A stretch of DNA of 64,000 bases from Gammaproteobacteria bacterium (GTDB lineage Bacteria > Pseudomonadota > Gammaproteobacteria > Pseudomonadales > Azotimanducaceae), in assembly GCA_026707735.1 (NCBI GenBank), contig JAPOWH010000012.1:1-64000 (forward strand), written 5' to 3'. The notes under the pieces are model-generated. The model saw nothing but the letters and a program-made list of their open reading frames with translations. It was not told the DNA's origin and did not search any database. This document shows, piece after piece, positions 6,128 through 56,938 of this stretch; the first letter of the stretch is position 1; each line of letters begins with the position of its first letter. Position numbers and translations under genes: made by a program.

Positions 6128-7582
6128 ATGCAACGAGGAAGAAGGCATTTACTTCTTGGATTCATATTAGGAGTTGGCCTCACGGCGGTTGCTTCAGTGA
6201 TGTTGGCAATATCGATTCCTTTGGTTCCCATTGAAAGACACACAAAGGAAACCAGTCAGGCTGAAGAAATAGCGTCGATTGGCAATGAACCAGACTCGCG
6301 AAGACTAAGTTCCGATGTAGATTTCGAGACAACACAGCATCCACTCTCGAACAATGAAAGCTCCGCTACCCGGAACCCGGGTCAATTTTGGAAAAGGTTA
6401 ACCACCGACGACGTTAGCGACGCCGCACAAGCCGTTCAGCTGATTGAAACAGCCGTGGCATGGGCGGACCAGAAAGGTGTTGAAATCCTAGAAGAGATGC
6501 ATTCAACTCAAATGGACCCTGCTTTGCGCGAAACTGTCATGCGTGCAGTTCTCGCTCGAACCTCAGAACTGGGATGGGAAAAGGGATTCGAGCAGATCGC
6601 AGGCCTTGCTGGCCAATCACGCGAGTGGGTCATGGAAGAGTCCGCACTGAATTGGGCCAAAAAGGAGCCGCGTGCCGCTTTGCGTACGGTGTCTTCGCTT
6701 CCAGATGCAGAAAGTAATCGTAGAGTGCTTCAACGAATCGTGGCCCTTGCTTGGGCCGAGGCCGAACCCCAAGTGGTCCTGGATGATTTGCAAGCAATTC
6801 CTGAGAACCTGCGGCTCCTAATAGAAGAAACGGCCATTTTGGCGATTGCTGAAGAGACACCAGAATTGGCGGTCCAATACATGCCGAAGTTCTCAGGTTT
6901 TCCGCAGGAACCCGTCCTCGCGGCAGCGATTGCCGCCAATTGGGCGGAGTTCGACCCCACTGCCGCCTTGGCCTGGGTACGGTCTCAAAATTTTTCCAGT
7001 GAATTGGTTCGGAATGATGTCACGAAGGTATTGCTGCGCACCTATGCCAAGTCCGAACCGGAGGTGGCTCTTCAGGTTGCCCTTGAAACTCCACTCGAGA
7101 GCACTAATTGGGATGCGGTCGGATTGGAGGCAGATGTCGTCGAGGTGGTGGCGTCGCGGGACATCGATGCGGCGATCGACATGCTGGCTCGAGTTCGCCC
7201 CGGTCGCACCACGCAAAGCGCATACGATGCTGTCGGCTCGACTTTGGTAGTGGAGCTACAGGACTTTGACCGCGCGATTGAGTTGGGAGAGAAAATTGTG
7301 CAGAATCATCGCTCCCGCTACTACAACGTGATTGCGGTTCGCGGGGCGTCACGAAGACCTCTCAGTTTGCTTGAACACCTGGAGAAGTTTCCGGTTTCGT
7401 CGCGGTCCAGTGCGGCCAAGCAGCTTCTCATGCACAATCGGGCAACAATGGCACTTACAACCAAGCAGATTGAGCAGGCTAAGACTTATCTGAACCCCAC
7501 CGACCGAAAAGCCATAGAGAGCTTGCCGCAAAGACATACCTTTGTCGTTCGTTCGAGGATTACTAGGGACGACGAACACTAA
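6128..7582 (+). CDS. Membrane-anchored helical-repeat protein, function unknown
   Basis: A 484-residue protein with one N-terminal hydrophobic segment (LLLGFILGVGLTAVASVMLA, about residues 8-27) that could be a membrane anchor. A low-complexity polar linker follows. Then come degenerate repeats of about 33-36 residues built around a Trp-Ala start and an acidic-Pro turn: WAKKEPRAAL, WAEAEPQVVL, AEETPELAV, WAEFDPTAALAW, YAKSEPEVAL. This looks like a TPR/HEAT-like alpha solenoid facing the periplasm and likely serving protein binding. I do not recognise a named family. It is divergent from the aldo/keto reductase with 130 bases between starts. Confidence 0.7.
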   Translation: MQRGRRHLLLGFILGVGLTAVASVMLAISIPLVPIERHTKETSQAEEIASIGNEPDSRRLSSDVDFETTQHPLSNNESSATRNPGQFWKRLTTDDVSDAAQAVQLIETAVAWADQKGVEILEEMHSTQMDPALRETVMRAVLARTSELGWEKGFEQIAGLAGQSREWVMEESALNWAKKEPRAALRTVSSLPDAESNRRVLQRIVALAWAEAEPQVVLDDLQAIPENLRLLIEETAILAIAEETPELAVQYMPKFSGFPQEPVLAAAIAANWAEFDPTAALAWVRSQNFSSELVRNDVTKVLLRTYAKSEPEVALQVALETPLESTNWDAVGLEADVVEVVASRDIDAAIDMLARVRPGRTTQSAYDAVGSTLVVELQDFDRAIELGEKIVQNHRSRYYNVIAVRGASRRPLSLLEHLEKFPVSSRSSAAKQLLMHNRATMALTTKQIEQAKTYLNPTDRKAIESLPQRHTFVVRSRITRDDEH

Positions 7583-41962: not shown

Positions 41963-42853
41963 TTATCTTGGGCTCTTTGTTCGAGGCGGAACTAGCTGGT
42001 TAGCAGAAGTTGCAACGGGCATCAGGAAGTCGGCGAGCTCCGCGACGATGTCTTCAAGTGAGTGGGGGTTGATTTCAAGATCTCCAACGAGTCGATTCCA
42101 TAGTTGACGCTTCAATGGGTCGTTAGAAAAAATTGGTGACAACCCATCGGGGATTTCGATTGGAATTTCTGTGCCCCTCCTTACAAAGGTTGCTGCTATA
42201 GACTGAGCTAAAAGGGATTGATCGATATCGAAGGCCTTGCTGATAATCCACAAATCATAGTAGTCCTTAATTCTGCTATTGGCTAAACCAAGATCTACCA
42301 ACGCTTGGAATTTCTCTGCTATTACTGTCTCGTGAGCGTAACCAAGCAACCGTGGAGAGGGCATGTCAAGCAATACAGGATAGTCGAGCCATTTGGCAGG
42401 CGGCTCTACGGCATCTCCAAAACCCACATCCACATGGACAGCAATTTGTGCTCCGCCAAAATCAGCTGTTGTTCGGTGGCGGACGCCACCGTAGGGATCG
42501 TGTGATCGAGTGGCGTCAATCCGAATTGCATCGACATCAAAACGCACACCGTCCGGGTGCTCTTGGCAGAGAATTTCTGCAAAAACAGATCGGATAAATT
42601 GCTGTGATGGTTCTCCATAACCAAGCAGGTCGAGGTCACGCGTACCGCGTATTGGCTCGTAAAACCATGTCATGAATAACATCGCACCTTTTAATACAAA
42701 CCGGTCGACATGTTTTGATTGCGCAAGCCGAAAAAGTAGACGCTCGATCGCATAATGTGTCAAGACAAGATCAAAATTCAGACCTTTGTCTTTGCTAATT
42801 CGTAAGAGACGAGCCATAACTGATGCTCCTAAATTTTTGATGGCTTTAGGCAT
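41963..42853 (-). CDS. abiEii: AbiEii-type nucleotidyltransferase toxin
   Basis: A 296-residue protein with the nucleotidyltransferase core MTWFYEPIRGTRDLDLLGYG and later YAHETVIAEKFQALVDLGLA with SRIKDYYDLW (DYxDLW motif of AbiEii/AbiGii). It is the toxin of type IV-style abortive-infection pairs. The ATG at 42853 lies inside the end of the antitoxin gene (overlap of eight bases). In the known pair the toxin is a GTP-binding nucleotidyltransferase acting on tRNA in related cases. Confidence 0.88.
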   Translation of the reverse strand: MPKAIKNLGASVMARLLRISKDKGLNFDLVLTHYAIERLLFRLAQSKHVDRFVLKGAMLFMTWFYEPIRGTRDLDLLGYGEPSQQFIRSVFAEILCQEHPDGVRFDVDAIRIDATRSHDPYGGVRHRTTADFGGAQIAVHVDVGFGDAVEPPAKWLDYPVLLDMPSPRLLGYAHETVIAEKFQALVDLGLANSRIKDYYDLWIISKAFDIDQSLLAQSIAATFVRRGTEIPIEIPDGLSPIFSNDPLKRQLWNRLVGDLEINPHSLEDIVAELADFLMPVATSANQLVPPRTKSPR

Positions 42854-43463
42854 TGATAGTGAGCACCTCAAGATAGGGATGGACTACGGTCGCAACGCCC
42901 CCGAGCTTTGCATGAGACGCGATATCCGCGGGTGATGCTTTGCGCTGGCGTAGGGCTTCTGTAAGTCCGCCTAAAGCAACATTCTGACCTACCGAACGAC
43001 GGTGTCGGAAACAATCGGCAATCGTCTTTGCTACGCCGAAAATCTTCACAGGAACTCGCTCGATATACACAGTCTCCACACTAGTCATCAGTAACGAATG
43101 TGCAAACCGAACGATGCGCATGGTCCGATTAGTGTCTTTAGGAGCCCAGTCCTTTGTACCAATCGCCATCCAAACAATTGGTGGAAGTTGGTCGGTCAGT
43201 CCGTGATATGCCAAAGCCGAAGCTAGACATACCACACCTTTGGGTACTCGCTTCGCGGCCTCGGCAAGGCTATGATTAGCGTCTAGCGGAGCATCTGCCA
43301 ATTGGTAAAGACCTCGTGCAAGACGTATTAGTTCGCCAGACCGGCTCATGCGGCTAATCGTAGCAGCAGTAATCCCAACGGCCTTAAATTCGGAAAGGCG
43401 CATGATTCCATACCTGTCAAGAAGCTTCAACGCTCGCTCGCGTTGCGAATCTGCTCGAGTCAA
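42846..43463 (-). CDS. abiEi: AbiEi-type antitoxin (winged-helix repressor)
   Basis: A 205-residue protein with an N-terminal helix-turn-helix (LLDRYGIMRLSEFKAVGITA, ATISRMSRSGELIRLARGLY) and the AbiEi middle domain (CLASALAYHGLTDQLPPIVW). It continues VKIFGVAKTIADCFRHRRSV, a family pattern. It represses its operon by binding inverted repeats and blocks the toxin effect. Upstream (43464-43530) is an AT-rich tract with TATAGGATTTATATATC, likely the promoter and operator. Confidence 0.88.
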   Translation of the reverse strand: MTRADSQRERALKLLDRYGIMRLSEFKAVGITAATISRMSRSGELIRLARGLYQLADAPLDANHSLAEAAKRVPKGVVCLASALAYHGLTDQLPPIVWMAIGTKDWAPKDTNRTMRIVRFAHSLLMTSVETVYIERVPVKIFGVAKTIADCFRHRRSVGQNVALGGLTEALRQRKASPADIASHAKLGGVATVVHPYLEVLTINA

Positions 43464-44155: not shown

Positions 44156-47100
44156 CTACCTCTCAGACAAGAATCCGATATCGTGAGTGACACGTGGATC
44201 GCCACATTCTGATCCTTCGTAGAGTCCGATGTCGTCAAGGTTCACGGTAGCCGAGTGTTGGGCGAGATCGAAAGCAACTCTAGCTGTAATGTCGGATTCG
44301 TTGACAGTGAAGGTGTGCTTGAAGTCCTGCCATTCGGTTGTTAGCGTCGAAGTGAACTGACCGCCGCTAAGGTTTTGCCATCCATGCATATTGCGATCAA
44401 GATAGGCGGCTATGGTGCGTCTGCTGTTTGCCTTCGCCGAATAGCATAGGGTGTACTGCTGACCAGCTACAACAGAGACTGTGTGGCTGATTTGCGCACG
44501 CCAAGGTTGCCCCACGTTAACCACGGAAATGTTGCCTTGCAGCGTGCCATCGCTGTGGGAAATGGTGTTGCCATTGAGTTCAACCGTATTCCAAAATCGT
44601 TGTAGTGGGAACTCGAACCAGGAGAAATCACCTCGGCTCACGATCAGGTTTCCTGAAAATCTCGGTTTTTCCGTAACTTGTGAGTAAAACATTACGTCGT
44701 TGCTCATCATTCCATTTGGTGTTTGGATTTGCAGGAAATTCAGTCCGTAACGATCTGGGGCGCTTTCGAATTGAATCGTGATCAGCTCGCTACTGCAATC
44801 TGGCAACTCGTCTTCTAAACATCCAACGGAACCATCTATCCGATGACCGTTAACAAATAGAGTGGACCCGGGCTGAATGTGCCTTCCCTTCATACCGAGA
44901 GTGAGTGAATCGGTCAGGTAGGTGATTTCAACGGTGGGAGACTGTCGAGCAATTCCGTCAAAGGTCTCGTCACCAACCGTCCAGTATGGCCAAATGGCAG
45001 GATGAGGAGCTTCGAATCCGACGTTTTGGCCTAGTCGCCCTGAAAAAGTCAAAACCAGCTTGCCAAGTCTTGCAAGTGTTGTCAGGTCGCCCTTGGAAAA
45101 CTCCTCGTTAGCATTGCCTTCCTCTTCGCGAGCAACAAACTTTCCATTTGAGTATTCAAGGCTGATGCCCCGCACATCCTCTGTGTCAGCATCGACAACC
45201 ACTACACCCTCAGCGTGCAGGATGATGGCTCCGTCGTCTGCCGCTTTGATGAGCGTGTCTATCAGTGTATCGGTGAGCTCGGCTTCGACTGTCTTTTCGC
45301 TGAGCGTTGCCTGCCGTGCGAATGTTCCCGAGAATCCCGTGCTGTACTCAAGCACCATGTCCCAATTAGCTTGAGTGCGCGCTCCGGCATGGAACCAAAT
45401 CTCCTGCTCAGGAAAATCGCCGCCCAAATCCATTCCGATCCTTTCGAGCAGGTCTATGACGTTGAATCTTGCTTGGGGGGTGATAAGCCATCTATCGTAA
45501 GCTCCACGCCAGGTCGGCGCGTCCATCCCATTGAAGGATCCCACATCTGCAAAGATATTTTCTGAAGAGGGTGTGTTGGTGCTGTTCAAATATGGAGGTC
45601 GGTGACACGCACCACAAGATTGTGCACCTGTTGTTAGCCCCGTGTCGTTGAGGAAATTGAACTCAAATATGCCAGTTTTCGCGGAGGCAGAAAGCTCATT
45701 GTCGAATGGGCGATTGGGAGCTGGAGGAAACGGTACGCTGAGCAGATAGCGTCCAAGTGCATCCCGTTCCGCGGCATCGAGAGCACCTTTCTTGCCCTCA
45801 TCGTTTTCGGGGCATTCTCCATACAGGCACATCGTTGTTGCTAAGCTGCCGTCTATCAGTACTCGAATACAGGATTCCGGATCGTCTTCATCACAGTTTG
45901 GGTCTACAGGATCCCAGAGCGAACTTGCATTTACGCCGCCAAACGGATCTCCAGGTATCCCGTCCCAGTGATAGGGTTGCGTGTCGCGCAATCCCCGTGC
46001 TGGCATAGTTAGGCGTGGAGGAATCTGCCCGCAGTCTGGGTGGTCGCACGGAGGAGTTTCCAACACCCAGATGAGCTGGTCTACGTTGTTGTCTGGATGG
46101 CAACTCTCACAAGAAAAAGTTCCAGTTGTCGATGCATTGGCGTCATTGAATGCCATGCGACCCTGCTTGACAAGTTCGGGGGTTGGGTCCACCAATTGAA
46201 TGGTTTCTGAAACCTCGGGAGCGGCCAACGTCGACAGATCGATCTTGGAAACCGAGTTGGCTACGACGTTATGTACCCATGCGTGCGACAATGAATCGTC
46301 GGCTTTAGAGACTAGTACTAGACCCCTAGGCACTTCCTCGACTTCGACTCGTCCAATAACAGACCCACTGCTTGCATCCAACACAAAAACCATGTCAGAG
46401 CCAGCCGCGGTTGCCACAATTGTGGAATCGTCGTTGCTTAGTTGGACTGCAAACGGTGTTGCAAGCGCCATTCCTGGGTCGGGATGTTCAGGAGGCAGCG
46501 GTTCTAAATCGAAGAATATGGGCGTTTCACAAGGAATTGACGAGCAATCAATCTTTGTTATTTGATTTAGAAATGCGCGGTTTTCCATCTCGGCCATGCC
46601 ATGCCCCTGCGTTCCCGCACGACCGTTGTCGATATTTCTTGCATCGGCTTGGGCTACAAAGACATTCCCTTTGGAATCGATAGCTAGTCCATAGAGCAAT
46701 GTTCCTATACCCTCGACTTCCGCCAACAATTCGTCGGATGACGCATCGAAGATGAAGAGGTCTCGGTCGGGCACCTTCGGATTCTTGACTATGTCCGCTT
46801 CATAGTCGAGCGAGAGCACGTTATTTGTTGTGTGAGTGTGTTGTATGGCGTCGTAGGTGCAGTTGTCGCCGTCAATGTCTTCTGGATTGCATCCCGAAAG
46901 TTGGCTGCGATTGCCCGATTCGAAAGCAACGACATACAGTAATCCATTGCGTACAGCTATGGCTCTGGGGTCCTGTGCGTTTATCGTAAGGTGGTCGTAC
47001 ACGGTCCGCGATTCGACATCGATGATTGCGATGCGATTCGATGGTCCGAGCGCGACATAAGCCTTGGAGGAGTCCGCAAAAGCAATTCCAATGGGTTCGT

Positions 47101-47581
47101 CGAAGTTAGTCTGCAGCGAGTCTACGTCAACGTCCTGAATTGTCGCGATGACTTGATGGTAGAAAAAACTTCTGGGATCTGTGTCTATAACGCTTATCGT
47201 GTCGGAAACATGGTTGGCAACCCAGATTTCTCTCCCATCAGGACGTAGCGCCAAGGCCACAGGATCTATGCCGACGTTAATTCGAAAGACAACACTGGCA
47301 GTCTCTGTATCGATTACGTCAACCGTATCTGCAGGTGTATTTACCGCATAGACAAGACCTTCTCGCAAGACTATTGGATTGGAATGCGGACTGGCGAACG
47401 TGGGGTGACCTACGTTGTCACTCACGTCTAGCTGTATACCCAAATTAGATTCCGAGCCAGTTAATGGCGATGAAATCAACGTTACTGCTACGCAAGCAGC
47501 CATCGCTGCAGAAGCCTTGGTTGAAGAGAGCACTGAACTAGCCAGCGAATGCAGAATCGAATTTGCTCGAGCAATTCGCAT
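44156..47581 (-). CDS. Large exported protein: YVTN-type beta-propeller, two c-type heme motifs, C-terminal carbohydrate-binding-like domain
   Basis: An 1141-residue protein with a signal-like start (AMAACVAVTLISSPLTGSES). Residues about 50-450 form a beta-propeller with repeats like GLVYAVNTPADTVDVIDTET and IWVANHVSDTISVIDT. Heme-binding CxxCH sites are SCESCHPDNN (near residue 490) and SCGACHRPPY (near 655). The last about 130 residues (NISVVNVGQPWRAQISHTVS, DFKHTFTVNESDITARVAFD) resemble CBM4/9-type binding modules. The whole layout suggests a secreted or surface redox protein acting on a polymer or at the cell surface. Function beyond that is inference. It is intact. Confidence 0.75.
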   Translation of the reverse strand: MRIARANSILHSLASSVLSSTKASAAMAACVAVTLISSPLTGSESNLGIQLDVSDNVGHPTFASPHSNPIVLREGLVYAVNTPADTVDVIDTETASVVFRINVGIDPVALALRPDGREIWVANHVSDTISVIDTDPRSFFYHQVIATIQDVDVDSLQTNFDEPIGIAFADSSKAYVALGPSNRIAIIDVESRTVYDHLTINAQDPRAIAVRNGLLYVVAFESGNRSQLSGCNPEDIDGDNCTYDAIQHTHTTNNVLSLDYEADIVKNPKVPDRDLFIFDASSDELLAEVEGIGTLLYGLAIDSKGNVFVAQADARNIDNGRAGTQGHGMAEMENRAFLNQITKIDCSSIPCETPIFFDLEPLPPEHPDPGMALATPFAVQLSNDDSTIVATAAGSDMVFVLDASSGSVIGRVEVEEVPRGLVLVSKADDSLSHAWVHNVVANSVSKIDLSTLAAPEVSETIQLVDPTPELVKQGRMAFNDANASTTGTFSCESCHPDNNVDQLIWVLETPPCDHPDCGQIPPRLTMPARGLRDTQPYHWDGIPGDPFGGVNASSLWDPVDPNCDEDDPESCIRVLIDGSLATTMCLYGECPENDEGKKGALDAAERDALGRYLLSVPFPPAPNRPFDNELSASAKTGIFEFNFLNDTGLTTGAQSCGACHRPPYLNSTNTPSSENIFADVGSFNGMDAPTWRGAYDRWLITPQARFNVIDLLERIGMDLGGDFPEQEIWFHAGARTQANWDMVLEYSTGFSGTFARQATLSEKTVEAELTDTLIDTLIKAADDGAIILHAEGVVVVDADTEDVRGISLEYSNGKFVAREEEGNANEEFSKGDLTTLARLGKLVLTFSGRLGQNVGFEAPHPAIWPYWTVGDETFDGIARQSPTVEITYLTDSLTLGMKGRHIQPGSTLFVNGHRIDGSVGCLEDELPDCSSELITIQFESAPDRYGLNFLQIQTPNGMMSNDVMFYSQVTEKPRFSGNLIVSRGDFSWFEFPLQRFWNTVELNGNTISHSDGTLQGNISVVNVGQPWRAQISHTVSVVAGQQYTLCYSAKANSRRTIAAYLDRNMHGWQNLSGGQFTSTLTTEWQDFKHTFTVNESDITARVAFDLAQHSATVNLDDIGLYEGSECGDPRVTHDIGFLSER

Positions 47582-47784
47582 GATGTCAAAGCAATCCGCA
47601 AATCGTTGGATTGGCAGATCAAGAGATTTAAACGCCCCAAATATGTTATGTGATTGGCAATTACTTGTAAATTTTTAGGCGAAGCTGGGAGTTTGAACTG
47701 CGTCAAAACTCAACCCTCGACTGCACTAAGGAAAGAGCCAACGGCATAATTTAGCCATAGCAAAGTACTTCGAAAGTGAACCAA

Positions 47785-48966
47785 ATGCTGCCATTGCAGG
47801 ATCTCGTCGTTCTTGACCTAACCATTGCGCGTGCAGGACCGACTGCTGTTCGGCTGCTAACCGATTGGGGTGCAAATGTGATCAAGGTGGAAGCCCCGCC
47901 TCGCTCTACACGACCGATTACCGGTAGCAGAGATGGTCCAGACGATCAAAACCTGCATCGCAACAAACGCAGCATTTGCATCGATCTCAAATCGGACACG
48001 GGATATGAGACATTCCTGGACCTAGTCCGCAAGGCAGATGTGCTTGTCGAGAATTTTCGGGCTCCAGTCAAGCATAAGCTCAGAATTGACTATGAAACGC
48101 TCAATCGTGTCAACCAACGTATGGTTTATGCCAGCATTTCGGGGTTTGGACAGACCGGGCCATACAGCGAACGAGGAGGAGTGGATCAAATTGTGCAGGG
48201 CATGTCTGGTCTCATGTCTATTACCGGCCACAAAGAACACGGTCCCGTGAGGGTTGGCATTGCAATTAGCGATACGACAGCGGGCATGTTTCTTGGTCAA
48301 GGAATACTGCTTGCACTATTGCAACGAGAGAAAACGGGTAAGGGTCAATGGGTTCATACCTCCTTGTTGGAGAGCATGCTGTGCAAGCTGGACTTCCAAG
48401 GAGCACGATATACGATGCGGGGAGAGGTTCCTGAACAGAGGGGCAACGATCATCCAACGATTTTTCCCATGGGTACATTTCAGTGCAAGGATGGCTTTGT
48501 GAACGTCGCTGCGCCATCGCAACAGATGTGGAAATCATTTCTGGATGCAATTGACGACAGGAAATTGCGAACCATTGAAAACTACGGATCAGTCCGTGGC
48601 CGTAACCAATTCCGTGAAGAACTAAAGCACGATATAGAGCAAGCGTTGGCTCTGTTTGAAGTGGAAGAACTTGTGGATAGGCTAAACGCCGTCGGAGTGC
48701 CTTGCGGTCCAGTGAATTCTGTTCGCGAGGGCTTTGAGAATCCTCAATCGCAGTACTTGAAAATGACCAAGACGGCTTCGCACCATCGGCTTGGTGACAT
48801 CGAGCTAATCCGATCGCCCATCGCGATGTCCGAAAATCCTCACACTGGTCGTTTCAAGCGAGCAGCACCAGATCTTGGTGAGCACTCTAGGGAAATTCTT
48901 GTTGAATTTGGTATTGACGATCAGCGAATAGAAAGCCTCATTGAATCTGGGGCCGTCCGGACCTAG
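47785..48966 (+). CDS. CaiB/BaiF (type III) CoA-transferase
   Basis: A 393-residue family III CoA-transferase. LPLQDLVVLDLTIARAGPTA opens it, with WGANVIKVEAPPRSTRP, HRNKRSICIDLKSDTGYETF and LVRKADVLVENFRAPV, and the catalytic Asp in RVGIAISDTTAGMFLGQGIL. It moves CoA between acyl groups, with donor and acceptor unknown. ATG 47785 is used and GTG 47776 is an alternative. The stop is directly adjacent, tail to tail, to the stop of the selenoprotein gene. Confidence 0.9.
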   Translation: MLPLQDLVVLDLTIARAGPTAVRLLTDWGANVIKVEAPPRSTRPITGSRDGPDDQNLHRNKRSICIDLKSDTGYETFLDLVRKADVLVENFRAPVKHKLRIDYETLNRVNQRMVYASISGFGQTGPYSERGGVDQIVQGMSGLMSITGHKEHGPVRVGIAISDTTAGMFLGQGILLALLQREKTGKGQWVHTSLLESMLCKLDFQGARYTMRGEVPEQRGNDHPTIFPMGTFQCKDGFVNVAAPSQQMWKSFLDAIDDRKLRTIENYGSVRGRNQFREELKHDIEQALALFEVEELVDRLNAVGVPCGPVNSVREGFENPQSQYLKMTKTASHHRLGDIELIRSPIAMSENPHTGRFKRAAPDLGEHSREILVEFGIDDQRIESLIESGAVRT

Positions 48967-49485
48967 TTACGAGGTAAGAGCAGCTACGACGGCTTCAATG
49001 CATTGGTCTGCCTTGGCCTTCATCTCTGCGTCTGTTGTTCCCTGAATGGGATGTGGCACGAACACGCATTGTGCGTCATTCATGCCTAACGCCTGTGCCT
49101 GAGTCTCTGCCGCGCTCTTGAATTCCGTGGAAGCAATGCTTACCGCTGGTGTCCCTTGGATTTCAAACCATACCGTGTCATGCAAACTGCACGTGGTACA
49201 GGACCCTCAGTCAGCTAGCGCTTCAACCACTAGGTCGCAGTCGTTTCGAATTCGCTCTCGAAGCTCGACCGGTGCAGGTTTCGTGAATGTGGGCTTGGAG
49301 TATCTTGCAATTTGAAGCCCGGGATGTCGCTCCCTTAGAAGTTCTTCAAGTCTATCGAGCAGAACGTTCCCCCTGGGCTTCGCAATGTCAAGAAGCGCAA
49401 TGCGCCCAGTTAGCGAGTCGGGGCGTGGAGAAACAGCGCGAACAACAGGCTTTCGTTCATCTGTGGGGTCAAGAATTGTCGTCAT
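48967..49485 (-). CDS. UGSC-family selenoprotein (in-frame UGA, Sec93)
   Basis: The minus strand encodes TTILDPTDERKPVV, then TGRIALLDIAKPRGNVLLDR and CDLVVEALAD up to TGA at 49207-49209. The frame continues without another stop: G-S-C-T-T-C-S, then LHDTVWFEIQGTPAVSIAST, EFKSAAETQAQALGMND and VAALTS, stopping with TAA at 48967. The family known as UGSC (seleno)proteins has exactly this Sec-Gly-Ser-Cys motif at this position. With Sec at codon 93 the product has 172 residues. ATG 49485 follows GGAGG by ten bases. The Sec-Gly-Ser-Cys pair would be a redox centre. Requires selA/B/C/D elsewhere in the genome, not in this window. Function of the family is not known. Confidence 0.82.
49179..49209 (-). 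promoter_or_regulatory. Predicted bacterial SECIS element behind the selenocysteine UGA
   Basis: After UGA come 13 bases, then a 5-bp stem CGUGC / GCAUG (one G.U pair) closing a loop AGUUU. The loop starts 18 bases after the UGA, within the 16-37 range reported for bacterial SECIS, and has a G at its second position. The stem is short, so it is suggestive only. Confidence 0.45.
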
Positions 49486-49558
49486 TGGGTGAATACCTCC
49501 AACTGTGCGGCTAACAATATACATTGGGAACGTCCCAACGTTTCTCATTCAAGCCAAA

Positions 49559-51121
49559 TTAGTCCTCAATTTTCCGCGATGTAGGGATGGATCCCATGGG
49601 TCCACTTGCCCATCCGTGGAAGGCTGCTGTGAACATTCCTGCTTCTGAACCCGCAAGCACGATATGAATTCTGTCCGAGGACGCGAATTTCGGTATAGGC
49701 TGCTTTAGCTCTTCTTCGCTCATGTTTGCGACATTTCCGCGGGGAATACCTACGGCATGTTCGTCACTTTCTACTAGCTCTGCTAAGGGAACCGCGGAAG
49801 CAACTTGAATCTGATTGCGGACATCTTTCTTGGTCCAGGAATTTTGTTTGAATGTGTCGCCGTGTTCCGGGCTGACAACAAGCAAAGCATCGCCTGTTCG
49901 ATGTGATCTGACGTGGTGCTGTGCGCGTAGCGAAAGGCCAAAGCTATTGGCCAAGTGTCTTCCGTTATGTGAGGATTGGTCAACTATGAGAGTGGGGCCA
50001 CCCGACATAGCGAACAGGGTGACGACTGAATCGCTTGCGTCAAATCCACGTTCGACATGCAACGGAGTCCAGGGACTGCGCTCCTCCCATTCGGCGAAAC
50101 ACATTGTGAATTTCATAGGATTGCCAAACGTCGATCTCTCGGTGCCACCCGGTCGTGCGCCTCCAATGTTTCGAATTGCTAATCTCAACGCGCGACCAAT
50201 TGCAGCATTGGCTCTGTTGCCTTGGCCAAGCGCCGACATTCCCATCTGCATGTTGAGCTTGTGTCGAATTGGTCCATTCACGACCATAACAGGCGAAGCG
50301 CCCATGGTCGTCGCAAACACTCCATGGCCATTGAATTCTTCTGTACATACTGCTTCTAAAGCAGCAATTACTATAGGAAGAAATTCAGATTTACACCCTG
50401 CTAACAAGGCATTTATAGCTACTTTCTCAACTGTTGCTGGAGCTAGATTGGGAGGAACCATGGCTACGATGTCGTGTGGATCGCGACGGGTTCCCTGAAG
50501 CATTCGAACGACACGATCGGGAGTGGGAGGAACGACGGGTAAACCGTCCGTAAAACCTTGATCAAACATGAACTCGTGCACGTCATCCTGTGCACCGATT
50601 TCAATTCGACGAGCACGAATTGGACTGTTTTCGGACTCGGCTCTAAGGCGCTCTCCAATTACAGGATCTTGAGTCAAGGATCCACAGCCTGGTTGCCACT
50701 CTGGCAGTTCACTCCATGAAACGCTCGTAGTAGGAAAGTGGCGAGAAAAGAATGTCTGCCATTCGTTTCGATCAAATCCTACGAGTCGATCTGCTTCCGA
50801 ACCCTTACTGTCGCTAAGTATCAGCAACGGCACTGTTTCTACGTCGTACGCAAATGACACTTTGAGTATTGAGTCGTCAAGTATGGGTGCTTTAGGTTGG
50901 AAACGCTTGGCGAGTAGATGGTTGCCGTCAGTAGTTTGTCCCAATGCAAATACTTGAATCGAATCGTTTTTTGAAAGTTCGTCGATGATCGGAAACACAA
51001 GATTGCAAGTGGGGCAATCTTCTTTCACGAAGCAAAGCAGAGTCGCTTTGCCGGTGGGAAACGAGTGCTCGTATCCTTGAATGTCATGCAAAAGAAAATC
51101 GGGTAGGGAGGGATTGTTCAC
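49559..51121 (-). CDS. Thioredoxin-fold domain fused to a long domain of unknown function
   Basis: A 520-residue protein. The N-terminal about 150 residues are thioredoxin/TlpA-like: NNPSLPDFLLHDIQGYEHSF, then LLCFVKEDCPTCNLVFPIID with a CPTC active site (Cys36, Cys39). After WQPGCGSLTQDP comes an about 360-residue part (DVHEFMFDQGFTDGLPVVPP, AINALLAGCKSEFLPIVIAA, VFATTMGASPVMVVNGPIRH) that I do not recognise as a named family. GTG 51121 starts one base after the stop of the RraA-like gene (TGAAGTG), so translation is coupled. It is followed by the UGSC selenoprotein gene. A thiol-disulfide partner role for the selenoprotein is inferred from the layout. Confidence 0.65.
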   Translation of the reverse strand: MNNPSLPDFLLHDIQGYEHSFPTGKATLLCFVKEDCPTCNLVFPIIDELSKNDSIQVFALGQTTDGNHLLAKRFQPKAPILDDSILKVSFAYDVETVPLLILSDSKGSEADRLVGFDRNEWQTFFSRHFPTTSVSWSELPEWQPGCGSLTQDPVIGERLRAESENSPIRARRIEIGAQDDVHEFMFDQGFTDGLPVVPPTPDRVVRMLQGTRRDPHDIVAMVPPNLAPATVEKVAINALLAGCKSEFLPIVIAALEAVCTEEFNGHGVFATTMGASPVMVVNGPIRHKLNMQMGMSALGQGNRANAAIGRALRLAIRNIGGARPGGTERSTFGNPMKFTMCFAEWEERSPWTPLHVERGFDASDSVVTLFAMSGGPTLIVDQSSHNGRHLANSFGLSLRAQHHVRSHRTGDALLVVSPEHGDTFKQNSWTKKDVRNQIQVASAVPLAELVESDEHAVGIPRGNVANMSEEELKQPIPKFASSDRIHIVLAGSEAGMFTAAFHGWASGPMGSIPTSRKIED

Positions 51122-51122
51122 T

Positions 51123-51827
51123 TCAGTGAACTTCAGCTTGTTTGCCCCAAGCGCGCTTAAGCGCTTCAAAGTCGAATCCAGGTTGCTGCGACGCCTCAAT
51201 CACAACGCTCTCCACGCGTGCTATTCGAGCCGCGGCAGCGGGCACACCACCAGCAGCGTCGATTGGAATGACTACAGCACCGTGCTGGTCCGAATGTATC
51301 AAGTCTCCGTCGCTCACTTCCATGCCAGCAACATCCACCTTATCGCCAAACCCGACTACATGTACAAAAGCGTGTGACGGGCCTATTCGGTCAGCGAGCA
51401 TTTGAAATCCGTTTGCGGCGTCTGGAACGTCCCTAACGCTTCCATCCGTAATCACTCCTAGACAACCCAGTCCAAAATGGATATTGCTGTTCACCTCTCC
51501 CCAAAACGCGCCATATCCCTTCGATTCTGCGTCGAGATCCTGAATCACCACGATTGATGGCTTGGGTCCACCGTCGATGTACGCATAGTAGCCTTGACTC
51601 AATTGCCGCGCGTCAGCGCCGCGAACCTGGGAAGGTTCCCTCGCTTTGATGGTCGCAGTCCTTGCGAAACCAACCATACTGCCAAGTTCCGGCCTTGTGC
51701 AAACCAGCGGCTCTGTGGTGTAGCCAAATCCTCGTCTGTCGGGAGCCACCGCTTCCAATGCATTGCAGACCGTCGGAGTATCTAATTCACGGAGTTGTTG
51801 CAGCAGTGTTTCATCGACTTGTGACAT
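51123..51827 (-). CDS. RraA-like protein (4-hydroxy-4-methyl-2-oxoglutarate aldolase/RraA family)
   Basis: A 234-residue RraA/menG-fold protein. ELDTPTVCNALEAV opens it. YAYIDGGPKPSIVVIQDLDA and AFWGEVNSNIHFGLGCLGVI precede the family's key motif TDGSVRDVPDAA (Arg and Asp of the metal-pyruvate site), and DLIHSDQHGAVVIPIDAAGG closes it. Members are aldolases or decarboxylases of oxo acids, or RNase E regulators. Those with the DGSVRD motif are more likely enzymes. First gene of the set with the thioredoxin-fused protein and the selenoprotein. Confidence 0.85.
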   Translation of the reverse strand: MSQVDETLLQQLRELDTPTVCNALEAVAPDRRGFGYTTEPLVCTRPELGSMVGFARTATIKAREPSQVRGADARQLSQGYYAYIDGGPKPSIVVIQDLDAESKGYGAFWGEVNSNIHFGLGCLGVITDGSVRDVPDAANGFQMLADRIGPSHAFVHVVGFGDKVDVAGMEVSDGDLIHSDQHGAVVIPIDAAGGVPAAAARIARVESVVIEASQQPGFDFEALKRAWGKQAEVH

Positions 51828-52268: not shown

Positions 52269-53333
52269 TTAGCCCCCAACCCACTCCAGCCATAAACCAT
52301 GTGGCGACGCTCTAGCCAATAGTTTGCGCTCAGCTGCAGAATTGGAGCAATAACGGGTGAGCGCCAGTTCATATTGTCCATTTGCACTTCCTTCCAATTC
52401 TATGTGCCAAATGGGACGTTGTTTGCAGAATTCACCGAGCAGTGGGGCAATGGCACTGCGGGTCAATTCCGAAAACTGGTAGGTGGAAATGGTTGAATAG
52501 ACCACAATTGCGTGATTTGCCGCAGCGCACTCAATCGTTTCGGGTAGCCGTGCAATGACATCACCCTCAAGGATGGTGGCTGGGAACTGCTTGAATTCCT
52601 CGATTGCAGCGAGCAGGCGGTTGTGGTGAGCGTGATGTTCTGGCCAGACTAGAGCACGCAGCCAGTTGACAGCGTTGATGTCTTTCACATCCACAGGTGC
52701 GACATCTATACCGATCCGACTACCAACTTCAATTTCGGTTTCTAAGCTAAGTAATTGATTTCCCCGAATTTTCGTACAGATTCGAACATTAGAATGAGAG
52801 TTTCCCCACTCCAAATCCGCATTGCAAGGATGACTGTATTTGTAGTAATAGCGATGAAAATTTAGATTTAGGCCCGCGCTTGCGCCTAGATCTATCAAGT
52901 GAAGCGGTGCACGTTTGGATTCTAGAGAAACCATCGAAAACGCTGGCAGCAGACAACCGCATCTACTTACGACGTTCGTCTGAACCTTTCGTTCTTCCAA
53001 CAACTTCACAATGGCGTTGCGATGGATTTGGCAGAATTCGCGAAAAGCTGTGGAGGCGGATTCCGATTGCGGCTCACCTCGGGAGAGTATGGGATAGTAC
53101 TCGCGCAATGGATGCTTCATTCCTGTCATTAGCAAGTACTGAACCGATGCGAAGAGCAGGTTAGGGGAGGGCTGCAGCCTTGGGCAATGGCTAGCTAGCT
53201 CAAGAAGGTCCGGCGTGCTTGCCACCGCATGAGCTAGTTCAGCGTACATGGGCGAATCCAGTTCAACCGCTTCGGTTTCTGAGAATTTGCGGAATTGGTT
53301 GCTGAGGACCGTAAGTTCGCTGTGTCTAGGCAT
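52269..53333 (-). CDS. DUF2332 (methyltransferase-like) protein
   Basis: A 354-residue protein with the S-adenosylmethionine-like motif HLIDLGASAGLNLNFHRYYY and SRIGIDVAPVDVKD, plus FCQIHRNAIVKLLEERKVQT as in DUF2332. The C-terminus has PIWHIELEGSANGQYELALT. Methyltransferase-like fold, activity unproven. ATG 53333 (MPRHSEL) is used. The 45 bases between its stop and the tRNA-Asp CCA hold no other signal. Confidence 0.82.
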   Translation of the reverse strand: MPRHSELTVLSNQFRKFSETEAVELDSPMYAELAHAVASTPDLLELASHCPRLQPSPNLLFASVQYLLMTGMKHPLREYYPILSRGEPQSESASTAFREFCQIHRNAIVKLLEERKVQTNVVSRCGCLLPAFSMVSLESKRAPLHLIDLGASAGLNLNFHRYYYKYSHPCNADLEWGNSHSNVRICTKIRGNQLLSLETEIEVGSRIGIDVAPVDVKDINAVNWLRALVWPEHHAHHNRLLAAIEEFKQFPATILEGDVIARLPETIECAAANHAIVVYSTISTYQFSELTRSAIAPLLGEFCKQRPIWHIELEGSANGQYELALTRYCSNSAAERKLLARASPHGLWLEWVGG

Positions 53334-53920
53334 ACTTGATCGAGATAGAAGGGCTACCTGGCCCAATCAAAAGCATCAAACATTCACCTAAGCTTGCAGT
53401 ACAGTCAACAATTATGGATGATTAAAGCTATTGGTCGAATCCCGTCTAGAATTGGGAACTAGCTCATCTATCTTGGACGGCCAAGTGTTGGAAAACGACC
53501 AGCGTCTAGGGTTACGCTACGTTGAATATGTGCAGAAGGTATCGTTGAAAGCGTCTATATCCGTAGGGCCACCGGTTGCTCTAGACTCCGTTGACGAATC
53601 TAGCAGTGTTGTGGCTAGGGTAGTCTCCACGCGTATGCATGCGTTACGGTAAATTGATAGAAAATGAAGAAATTCTTTAGAGTAAGCTTGGGAGAGCTAG
53701 TACAATGTGTCAATGACAATTTAACATACTCATATGCGAATGTCTCTCATTCCAAGAGGCAATGAGCGTCTATTCAGCGCTCACAACGTGGAATTGCAAT
53801 CCATTGCGTATGAACATAATTGGCTGACTCTGGAGAACACCTACAAGGTTCTTCAGTCTAATCTCACACAAGGGCTTCTATGAAAGAAGGAATGAAGAGG
53901 AACAGGAATGGAGGTTCCGA
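53334..53920. other. 587-base region upstream of the TonB receptor gene
   Basis: An open frame at 53431-53652 (73 codons, TTG start) has no ribosome site and no recognisable features and is probably not coding. The rest should hold the receptor promoter. No clear iron-box-like palindrome was seen. Confidence 0.4.
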
Positions 53921-56900
53921 ATGAATCGTAAGACACCTTTGCATGCTCGCCGCGCCACCCTTGGTGCAAGTGTGGCAGGTTTTGCATGCGTTGTATGTCT
54001 CGGACTAGGAATGCCGACAGATGCGCAGGAATCTGAAACCGTTGACGAAGAGATTGAAGAGATCATCGTCACTGGATCTCGGATCTTGCGCAACGACATG
54101 GAAAGTTCTAGTCCGTTGGTGCAAATCGAAAGTACTGAGTTCGAGTACCAAGGAACTGTGCGTGTTGAAGACATGCTGCGAAATCTTCCGCAGGTATGGT
54201 CAAAGCAAAATACAGGGCAGTCGAACGGTGCGACTGGAACGGCTACAGTAGATTTGCGTAACTTAGGCAGTGTACGCACTCTGGTGCTAATGAACGGTCG
54301 CCGAATGCCAGCGGGATCGCCAATTGGTACTCCAGTTGACATCAATCAGATCCCGGGCGCACTAATTGACAGAGTCGAGATCCTTACTGGCGGGGCATCT
54401 GCTACCTATGGATCGGACGCTGTTGCTGGGGTCATTAACTTCATCCTAAAGGATTGGAGTGAAGGCATCGTGTTCGATTTCCAGCAAAGCGCCTACAACC
54501 ACATCAACGACAGCGATATACAAGACATCGTAACTGAGAGTGGTTTCGACTTGCCATCAGACAACGTCACGGATGGTCAGATGACTCAGGCTTCTCTACT
54601 GATGGGCGGCAATATCGACGACGGTAGAGGAAATATCACTCTTTATGCAACGTATCGGGACATCAAGGCCGTTAGGCAAGCAAGTCGCGACTACAGTGCG
54701 TGCGCGTTAAACAACGAAGCGGACGGATGTTGGGGTTCCAGCACAATACCCGAAGGACGATTTACCAATTTCGCGGGTGGACCCATTGGGTTTGACTACA
54801 AAGTTGACGGGACTCAGTTCGTACCCCGCGCCGGGACGCTATTCAACTACGGTCCTTTGAACTATTTTCAAAGACCTGACGAACGCTATGCCTTTGGTGC
54901 GTTTGGTACGTATCAAACAACTGATTGGTCTGAGGTTTACGTGGAGCTCATGTTCATGGATGACCGATCCGTTTCGCAAATTGCACCATCTGGAGCTTTC
55001 TTTGTCACGAGCTCGTTAAGCTGCGCCAATCCCTTCTTGAGTGATCAACAATATAACCTGCTCACTCAGGGTCGACTCTCGCCCGATCAACAGACAGAGC
55101 TCGACGAAGTACTCGCAGGATTGGCTGACGATGCTGCAAGAGACGCCTACTTGGACTCGGCATTCTGTCAAAACCGAGAAGACGATTTCATCGACGTCTA
55201 CATTGGTAGGCGAAATATCGAAGGTGGGCCACGGAGGCAAGACCTGCGACACACCAACTTCAGGATTGTTGCGGGATCTCAAGGCGAGATCAATGAGTAT
55301 TGGAGATATGACGGATTTGTCCAACGATCGGTCGTAAGCATGGAGAATACATACCAAAACGATTTGGGTACGACGAAGATCATTCGCGCTTTGGATGCAC
55401 TGTTTGACGGCGCTGGCAACGTGGTTTGCCGTTCCGCATTGAATGGCGTAGATCCGAATTGCGTTCCGTGGAACATATTTGATTCAGACGGCGTGACTCA
55501 AGACATGATCGACTACCTAGTACTGCCATTATTTGCACGAGGAACGACCGAACAGGAAGTACTCTCGGCATATGTTCAAGGGGATATGGCGCAATATGGA
55601 TGGCAAGTGCCAAGTTCTAGTCGAGGCATAGACTTAGTCTTGGGATTCGAAACTCGGTCAGAACGCATGACGTTTGATCCCGATGAGGGTTATCGCAACG
55701 GAGAGGGAGCCGGGCAGGGCGGCGCGACCAATCCCGTAGCTGGCGAGTATGACGTAATTGAGTTGTTCGGCGAAGCCAACATTCCTCTCATTGAAGGTGC
55801 AGACTACATGGAGGAAGTAATGCTCGAGTCGGCCTATCGGTTCTCAGACTACTCAACTGGTCATAGCACTCACACCTGGGGCTTGCGGTTGAGCTGGGCG
55901 ATTGACGATCAGCTTCGATTCAGAGGAAGTATCCAGCGTGCCGTCCGAGCAGCCAACATTCGAGAGCTGTTTACGCCTCAAGGATTCAATCTTTTTGACA
56001 TGGACGAGGATCCCTGTGGAGGTCCCGTTACTGATGGAACCACCAATGCTGGACGAACTCTGCAAGAGTGTCAGCGAAGCGGCGTAACCGCGTCTCAGTT
56101 TGGAAACATCCAGCACTCTCCTGCGGGGCAATACAACTTCCTCCAGGGTGGCAATCCCGATGTCAGCCCAGAAGAATCTGACACATTAACGGTTGGAGCT
56201 GTATGGAATCCCCATTTCGAGCCTGCCTTGAGCGTAGCGATGGACATCTACAACGTGAGAATAGAACAGGGCATTTCCATCTTGACGCCGGAATTCATTC
56301 TCAATGAGTGCTTGGATGGAGACGACGGCCAATGCCAATTGGTGAACAGAAGTTCCGCACGAGGAGACCTGTGGATCGGTTCCGACGTATCGTCAAGTGG
56401 CCACATTGTTGCTTTGAATGACAATCTGGCAGTCGAAGAAGTTACAGGAATCGATGCCATTGTGGACTACTCGTTTTCGTTGGATCGAATTGGAACTATC
56501 GATATTCACAACGTATTTGGTCTGCTGACGCAATGGGATCAGCAAGAACTTTCCTCTGCGCCAGTCGAAGACTGCTTGGGTGTTTGGGGCGGCGTATGCG
56601 GTTATCCGGTTCCTAATGTACGCAACAATTTGCGCGTGACCGTCGACACCCTGTACGAACCTTTGGTAGTAACCGGCATGTGGCGTTACACGGGCGAGAT
56701 GGATCAGCACGGTGGTGGCGTTAGCTTAGATGCAGTGCACTACATCGACGCGGCTGGAGTCTATACGGTCAACGAGACTACAAAGATTCGTGCCGGTGTG
56801 AACAATGTTCTTGATGTAGATCCGCCGATCGCTGGAAATGGGGCTGGACCGTCTATTTCTGGCAATGGAAACGTGTTTCCTGGATCCTATGACGCGTTGG

Positions 56901-56938
56901 GCAGATACTGGTATTTGGCTGTCAAAGTCACGCTATAG
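53921..56938 (+). CDS. TonB-dependent outer-membrane receptor
   Basis: A 1005-residue protein with a signal peptide (GASVAGFACVVCLGLGMPTD), a plug domain (EEIEEIIVTGSRILRNDMES, LPQVW, GATGTATVDLRNLGSVRTLV, MNGRRMPAG) and a large beta-barrel ending in an aromatic/hydrophobic strand (YWYLAVKVTL). The plug pattern GGASATYGSDAVAGVINFIL is diagnostic. It imports a siderophore, vitamin or glycan-like ligand, and the ligand cannot be read. Strong ribosome site GGAGG before ATG. A terminator hairpin follows at 56960. Confidence 0.95.
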   Translation: MNRKTPLHARRATLGASVAGFACVVCLGLGMPTDAQESETVDEEIEEIIVTGSRILRNDMESSSPLVQIESTEFEYQGTVRVEDMLRNLPQVWSKQNTGQSNGATGTATVDLRNLGSVRTLVLMNGRRMPAGSPIGTPVDINQIPGALIDRVEILTGGASATYGSDAVAGVINFILKDWSEGIVFDFQQSAYNHINDSDIQDIVTESGFDLPSDNVTDGQMTQASLLMGGNIDDGRGNITLYATYRDIKAVRQASRDYSACALNNEADGCWGSSTIPEGRFTNFAGGPIGFDYKVDGTQFVPRAGTLFNYGPLNYFQRPDERYAFGAFGTYQTTDWSEVYVELMFMDDRSVSQIAPSGAFFVTSSLSCANPFLSDQQYNLLTQGRLSPDQQTELDEVLAGLADDAARDAYLDSAFCQNREDDFIDVYIGRRNIEGGPRRQDLRHTNFRIVAGSQGEINEYWRYDGFVQRSVVSMENTYQNDLGTTKIIRALDALFDGAGNVVCRSALNGVDPNCVPWNIFDSDGVTQDMIDYLVLPLFARGTTEQEVLSAYVQGDMAQYGWQVPSSSRGIDLVLGFETRSERMTFDPDEGYRNGEGAGQGGATNPVAGEYDVIELFGEANIPLIEGADYMEEVMLESAYRFSDYSTGHSTHTWGLRLSWAIDDQLRFRGSIQRAVRAANIRELFTPQGFNLFDMDEDPCGGPVTDGTTNAGRTLQECQRSGVTASQFGNIQHSPAGQYNFLQGGNPDVSPEESDTLTVGAVWNPHFEPALSVAMDIYNVRIEQGISILTPEFILNECLDGDDGQCQLVNRSSARGDLWIGSDVSSSGHIVALNDNLAVEEVTGIDAIVDYSFSLDRIGTIDIHNVFGLLTQWDQQELSSAPVEDCLGVWGGVCGYPVPNVRNNLRVTVDTLYEPLVVTGMWRYTGEMDQHGGGVSLDAVHYIDAAGVYTVNETTKIRAGVNNVLDVDPPIAGNGAGPSISGNGNVFPGSYDALGRYWYLAVKVTL

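Follow-up and report, generated by a model that had tools for sequence, protein, structure and literature searches.

A putative UGSC-family selenoprotein, its near-constant partner gene and its resemblance to the selenocysteine-bearing region of GrdB

The stretch of DNA analyzed here, referred to as the window, comprises 64,000 nucleotides of a contig (JAPOWH010000012.1) from a gammaproteobacterial genome of the Azotimanducaceae (assembly GCA_026707735.1; 3.37 Mb in 29 contigs, 95.8% complete). Its minus strand carries a short gene of the UGSC family, which starts with ATG 49485-49483, ends with TAA 48969-48967 and is preceded, ten bases 5' of the ATG, by a ribosome-binding-like GGAGG (49500-49496). 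A single TGA lies inside the frame, continued in frame by G-S-C-T-T-C, and 79 residues follow codon 93 up to the TAA; the mechanical ORF list splits the gene at this place into an ORF of 113 aa (ATG 49548 to the TGA) and one of 72 aa (from TTG 49185). The gene upstream, termed the partner here, encodes two domains, and its true start is probably located some 20 codons after the listed TTG, as judged by comparison with relatives. The remaining neighbors are an RraA-like gene, the only such match in the host genome, and a family III CoA-transferase gene, for which the host genome has 20 matches. The features are collected in Table 1.

Table 1. Features of the UGSC locus and the SelD fusion gene of the same genome (positions refer to the window unless another sequence is named).
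Feature	Position	Strand	Description
UGSC selenoprotein gene	48967..49485	(-)	172 codons plus TAA, Sec (predicted) at codon 93; full-length family match
In-frame TGA, predicted to be read as selenocysteine	49207..49209	(-)	codon 93 of the UGSC gene
SECIS-like hairpin	49179..49193	(-)	positions 17-31 counted from the T of the TGA; apical GUU, G at position 23
Partner gene	49559..51199	(-)	listed 546-aa ORF from TTG; thioredoxin-like domain followed by partner domain
CPTC motif, residues 62-65, in the thioredoxin-like domain	51005..51016	(-)	seen in the sequence
Partner domain, 352 aa	49562..50617	(-)	without Pfam or NCBIfam family
RraA-like aldolase-family gene	51123..51827	(-)	overlaps the start of the listed partner ORF
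Family III CoA-transferase gene	47776..48966	(+)	convergent; stop codon abuts the UGSC stop
SelD fusion gene	L099:5052-7241, contig C7 of the host genome	(-)	few kb from the tRNA-Sec gene

Further out, a DUF2332 protein (52269-53366, minus strand) and a TonB-dependent receptor (53921-56938, plus strand) are encoded upstream of the UGSC operon. On the other side, 44156-47581 (minus strand) encodes a protein of 1141 aa with an unusual mix of a YNCE-like beta-propeller and a carbohydrate-binding domain, in which a di-haem cytochrome c peroxidase match falls just under the cut-off. An AbiEii-type nucleotidyltransferase toxin gene overlaps that of an AbiEi antitoxin-like regulator at 41963-43463 (minus strand), forming a type IV toxin-antitoxin pair.

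An earlier note on this DNA had proposed that an in-frame UGA in a U-G-S-C motif joins the two apparent ORFs into one gene, whose product belongs to the named UGSC family. Both proposals are borne out: the single 172-aa frame (49485-48967) matches PF24696 over residues 3-171 (E 1.7e-50; 171.9 bits, curated cut-off 25) and NCBIfam NF041046 over residues 28-171 (E 1.1e-50; 171.4 bits, curated cut-off 125), which is far beyond chance. On sequence grounds, the window gene is a full-length member of the family, U-G-S-C motif included, and it is the sole match to UGSC in the host genome. The expectation that a gene finder would split such a gene is matched by a Paracoccus ferrooxidans plasmid (L186), which is publicly annotated with two small hypothetical ORFs in place of a UGSC gene with TGA in the motif (Sec form; L186:6387-6956); the same annotation places selB at a distance of a few kb.

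UGSC genes were found in 5 of 398 genomes of a phylum-wide sample and in 60 of 117 genomes drawn as relatives, the host being included in both sets. In the latter set, 96 of 102 matches have exactly one internal stop, always TGA; the other six are two Ser forms (L068 and L069), three short pieces and one weak match. Among 46 distinct UGSC sequences, the window's included, the motif residue is Sec in 42, Cys in two and Ser in two. The two Ser forms are paralogues (around position 7000-7500 of their loci) with the codons AGT and TCA at the Sec place, possibly a non-redox offshoot. According to the available part of PMC2398784, the “UGSC-containing protein” has been a named family since at least 2008 and, with 255 Sec sequences, ranks among the commonest selenoproteins of the GOS aquatic metagenomes. 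The earlier note had called the function unknown; this stands insofar as none is stated for UGSC in the available portions of PMC2398784 or PMC13188914, but the function can be narrowed via relatives and genomic neighbors.

The most constant neighbor is the partner. Homologues of the partner domain are present in the loci of 44 of the 46 distinct UGSC sequences, the two exceptions being the Ser forms (about 7 kb examined on each side); in L058 and L059, the partner and UGSC form one chain. Conversely, a search that started from the partner gave 127 genome loci; of the best 80, 78 contain Sec-form UGSC, and in the other two (L113 and L145) the N-terminal UGSC part alone was found, near the end of the available stretch. 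Plasmid records with the partner number 24, and in 13 of the 15 that were examined a UGSC-like protein is encoded: the Sec form in three (Acidovorax and two Paracoccus), the Cys form in nine (five haloarchaea, Roseovarius, Arthrobacter, Variovorax and Embleya) and, on a Vibrio europaeus plasmid (L184:6362-8047), an ORF that combines the partner domain with a UGSC-like domain whose motif has neither Sec nor Cys. In the other two, L185 and L187 (Sporomusa, Haladaptatus), the partner occurs without UGSC. Three haloarchaeal loci (L188, L190 and L194) carry the partner in duplicate, UGSC being located between the copies or next to them. The Vibrio europaeus ORF adjoins genes for aconitase X and DUF126. 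Among the matches listed, the closest named partner homologues belong to uncultured gammaproteobacterial genomes.

The partner protein itself is only partly covered by known families. Its N-terminus gives MauD, ResA and thioredoxin matches, all weak or below curated cut-offs, but consistent with each other. The following domain has D24, G25, P27, P31, A73-G74-C75, T104 and C173 among its invariant positions in 38 sequences (the window's and 37 of 38 references, the short L026 piece being omitted). When these 38 members were scanned against Pfam at E up to 0.1, two single-member matches (0.084 and 0.089) resulted, which were taken as chance. The structural model of the domain is confident (91.3); it has no counterpart among solved structures by fold at E 0.001 or better, and the partner profile has none up to E 1. 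A fumarate hydratase fold, the best Foldseek match (TM 0.26, E 1.6e-3), was considered and judged meaningless. Comparison with GrdE and the N-terminus of GrdB revealed no likeness, the partner profile reaching 0.1% probability against one GrdE. The partner domain is a widespread family without Pfam, NCBIfam or solved-structure entry. A domain “Unknown_1” is described as fused to UGSC in the legend to Figure S1A of PMC2398784, the part of that source available; it is possibly the partner domain, given that the partner is fused to UGSC in L058 and L059.

The catalytic role might instead be sought in the partner: it may be an enzyme of the hydratase, lyase or hydrolase type, and UGSC may only keep its invariant cysteines reduced or regulate it. 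The invariant C75 and C173, the occurrence of the partner without UGSC in L185 and L187, the UGSC-like domain of L184 that lacks both Sec and Cys, and a weak Foldseek likeness to fumarate hydratase and cyclic amide hydrolases (at best E 1.6e-3, TM 0.26) would fit this division of labor. However, the fold match is not significant, the motif likeness of UGSC is to a catalytic Sec protein, and with Sec in 42 and Cys in two of the 46 sequences, the two Ser forms are exactly the two without partner, as expected if Sec or Cys is needed with the partner. An enzymatic partner merely served by UGSC thus appears unlikely, and UGSC is preferred here as the selenol-bearing catalytic subunit.

Electrons for such a subunit may come from thioredoxin, for which linkage is seen in part of the family. 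In window-type loci a thioredoxin domain is fused to the partner; the gene order is trxB-trxA-partner-UGSC in Arthrobacter and partner-UGSC-trxB in Roseovarius, trxB lies near UGSC and the partner in Variovorax, and trxB matches were also obtained in L074, L075, L193 and L194. At E 1e-6, neither trxA nor trxB was matched in L057-L059, L061, L063, L065, L070, L073, L180 and L184-L192. As for the surrounding metabolism, CoA-transferases, RraA-family proteins, CoA ester lyase, TRAP or tripartite carboxylate transporters, phosphosulfolactate synthase and aconitase X recur around UGSC or the partner. CoA-transferases are matched in 9 and RraA-like proteins in 7 of the 80 genome partner loci (best 80 of 127), and in 5 and 2, respectively, of the 15 plasmid loci; a scan of 85 neighbor proteins (3 from the window and 82 of 132 selected ORFs) gave seven matches to acyl-CoA dehydrogenases, five to CoA-transferases and four to RraA. 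It is possible that the convergent CoA-transferase of the window is a member of the UGSC pathway, but the 20 matches in the host genome weaken this link, which counts for little. One further family III CoA-transferase match of the host (C2:251988-253100, minus strand) contains one in-frame TGA; it may be a disrupted gene, an error or something else.

A clue to the chemistry is offered by the B subunit of glycine reductase. The C-terminal region of a GrdB from a relative of the host (L077; Sec motif UGTCTRC) matches the UGSC protein of L072 with Sec aligned on Sec (E 2e-4); among the UGSC proteins searched with this query, L072 alone was matched at E 1e-3. At the profile level, 30 UGSC and 20 GRDB-type sequences align over 81 columns that surround and follow the Sec, with a probability of 90.9%, an E of 1.1e-6 and a score of 47.3, the control scores being at most 19.3 for 60 column shuffles and 14.5 for the reversed profile. 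The UGSC profile also matches one full GrdB (E 3.2e-7, score 52.5), compared with 26.1 for the best non-UGSC ORF among 219 ORFs of the neighborhood set. The UGSC alignment comprises 30 of 42 representatives of the 46 distinct sequences; nine further close relatives, the two Ser forms and L024, whose UGSC match is split and whose TGA is not at the motif, were left out. Common to both families is the pattern U-G-[ST]-C-T-x-C, then G-[IL]-P, then H-P-[ILV]. None of the 30 UGSC members matches the Pfam GRDB model (PF07355) at E up to 0.1, and the host genome contains no GRDB match. Since Pfam GRDB is silent and L072 is the sole sequence-level match at E 1e-3, the case for kinship depends on profiles, and the likeness peaks near the Sec motif; UGSC is accordingly called a relative of the Sec region of GrdB, not a GRDB member. 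Mainly at the profile level, then, UGSC resembles the selenium-bearing C-terminal region of GrdB, Sec on Sec. Genes of this type occur in genomes related to the host: an adjacent GrdE-GrdB type pair, with the GrdB Sec motif UGTCTRC, is located at L097:9069-11611 (minus strand), and L078-L096 contain numerous short GRDB-like genes, kin of PrdB, in which an in-frame TGA is part of a U-P-x-C motif.

The predicted fold of UGSC bears on the same question. In the AlphaFold2 model (mean pLDDT 94.7, pTM 0.88), five strands alternate with five helices, and Sec93 is placed just before helix 94-109. Foldseek relates this model to azoreductases, flavodoxins and lumazine synthases (TM roughly 0.4-0.6, E 3e-5 at best), and thioredoxin is absent among the 50 solved structures listed. 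Against solved structures, the UGSC profile gives E 0.29 and worse only, and a search by sequence for solved relatives of GrdB yielded none. A thioredoxin-like fold has been suggested for UGSC in the available part of PMC2398784 and is implied in that of PMC13188914; the alternating model and a Foldseek list devoid of thioredoxin speak against it, and an alternating alpha/beta fold is predicted instead. UGSC may still be a selenoprotein of general thiol redox function, akin to a peroxidase or thioredoxin, which is the assumption made in the literature, and the UxxC motif and the thioredoxin-type neighbors would be in keeping with such a role. In view of the five-strand, five-helix model, a profile similarity that is to GrdB and a near-constant partner of 350 aa, which a general redox protein would hardly need, we regard this role as rather improbable and retain a GrdB-like function of UGSC.

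All of this presupposes that the TGA is decoded as selenocysteine. The selA, selB, selD and tRNA-Sec genes, for which the earlier note had advised a search, are all present in the host genome above their cut-offs: tRNA-Sec with 71.9 bits (Rfam cut-off exceeded; anticodon TCA), selA with 515 bits, selB, which directly adjoins selA, with 367 bits and selD with 273 bits (curated cut-offs exceeded). SelD is the C-terminal part of a protein of 729 aa with an N-terminal pyridine-nucleotide oxidoreductase domain, a fusion of a type also mentioned in the available part of PMC2398784. No common neighborhood of UGSC and the sel genes was found: three contigs of the host genome carry UGSC, selA/selB and tRNA-Sec/selD, respectively. 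With sel genes in the genome and Sec or Cys in homologues at codon 93, the joint absence that the earlier note had named as fatal to recoding does not occur, and its other ground for rejection, separate translation of the two ORFs, does not apply either.

Selection on the part behind the TGA was assessed in 31 sequences that are equal in length and have TGA as codon 93; some of them represent one place fetched twice. The median dN/dS is 0.156 on the 3' side of the TGA vs 0.205 on the 5' side (118 of 465 pairs, with dS usable and below 2 on both sides; against the window sequence itself, dS is mostly saturated), which indicates that the downstream part is selected as protein. Bacterial SECIS elements have a small apical loop that holds a G (PMC1088965, available part), and the window UGSC gene has a hairpin of this kind just 3' of the UGA. 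Its pairs 17-31, 20-28 and 21-27 are kept in all 31 distinct UGSC sequences, 18-30 and 19-29 in 28 and 22-26 in 27; pair 21-27 is C-G in 28 and G-C in three, i.e., changed on both sides, and position 23 is G in 28 of the 31. The folding energy of the window hairpin is reached by 43 of 1000 synonymous reshuffles, modest support when taken alone, and that of six tested relatives by 6 to 51 of 1000. In L065 and L070, 225 and 236 of 1000 reshuffles fold as well; these two and one of the two L076 copies are without the hairpin G and two pairs. An Rfam scan of 48700-49700 returned no SECIS, with a sub-threshold CRISPR repeat as the sole match, and thus lends the hairpin no support.

Taken together, the family matches, the host sel genes with tRNA-Sec, the conserved TGA and the purifying selection 3' of it uphold the selenocysteine assignment of the earlier note: codon 93 is almost certainly decoded as selenocysteine by the host SelA, SelB, SelD and tRNA-Sec, aided by the hairpin just 3', and this recoding is as sure as sequence alone allows. 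That the TGA is instead a real stop, a sequencing or assembly error or a codon for another amino acid, with the downstream part untranslated in frame, would agree with the two mechanically listed ORFs, but is hardly credible given TGA at the same codon in 42 of the 46 distinct sequences and Cys in two, the full Sec machinery of the host and a dN/dS that is lower in the downstream than in the upstream half.

The pieces of the UGSC operon resemble parts of glycine reductase, except for a different second subunit. UGSC and its partner are proposed to make up a thioredoxin-fed enzyme of two subunits that reduces a small carboxylic metabolite. Starting from the recoding context, the profile-level kinship, the partner linkage and the partial thioredoxin linkage, we infer complex, substrate and reaction as follows: UGSC would act as the selenol subunit and form a complex with the upstream-encoded partner as second subunit. 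The partner domain may bind a small organic acid or related metabolite, positioning it for attack by the Sec selenolate in front of helix 94-109, upon which a C-X bond would be cleaved reductively. The oxidized Sec may then form a selenenyl-sulfide with Cys96 or Cys99, to be re-reduced by the thioredoxin-like CPTC domain that is fused to the partner here. The RraA-like enzyme, and perhaps the CoA-transferase, would process the substrate or the product. This whole account, in which a Sec-decoded relative of GrdB and PrdB and its partner make up a thioredoxin-fed enzyme that reduces a small organic substrate, is in our estimation evenly balanced between being right and being wrong. More tentatively, and with the doubts prevailing, UGSC and its partner may represent a further, unrecognized class of GrdB-type selenoenzymes, thioredoxin-driven reductases of small organic acids with a substrate-binding subunit of their own; the same guarded reading would make this class widespread in uncultured aquatic bacteria, with a Cys form in haloarchaea, whereas glycine and proline reductases of the classical kind are known chiefly from anaerobes that ferment amino acids.

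The kinship with GrdB, the questioned fold, the near-constant partner and the thioredoxin supply bring UGSC within reach of co-expression and assay, and the partner domain, as a widespread family outside Pfam and NCBIfam, is of interest by itself. Neither a link between UGSC and GrdB nor a description of the partner was found in the available text of the literature searched, which lay outside subscription papers and preprints.

Among known systems, the glycine, sarcosine, betaine and proline reductases (GrdB/PrdB, PF07355) share U-G-[ST]-C-T-x-C and the downstream H-P-[ILV] with UGSC. According to the available part of PMC13188914, GrdB carries UxxCxxC and thioredoxin takes part in the reduction by glycine reductase, much as thioredoxin is linked to UGSC in part of the family. 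A nucleophilic attack of the GrdB Sec on the bound substrate is assumed in the available part of PMC10838667. In contrast to GrdB, UGSC has neither the N-terminal GrdB domain nor a Pfam GRDB score, its operon contains a different partner family instead of a GrdE-like partner, and it is also found with Cys, in haloarchaea. The same portion of PMC10838667 proposes, from genome and transcript data, that the GrdB/GrdE homologues FarB/FarE cleave the C-F bond of fluoroacetate in Synergistota, which suggests that the GrdB type may act on C-X bonds other than C-N; unlike the UGSC system, FarB/FarE is anaerobic and its operon contains a GrdE homologue and a radical SAM protein. With the UGSC family as described by PF24696 and NF041046, the window protein agrees in all essentials, motif included, and its gene adjoins a thioredoxin-partner fusion and an RraA-like gene. 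The window gene is thus a new member of a family already known, and it is the link to GrdB and the partner that merit further attention.
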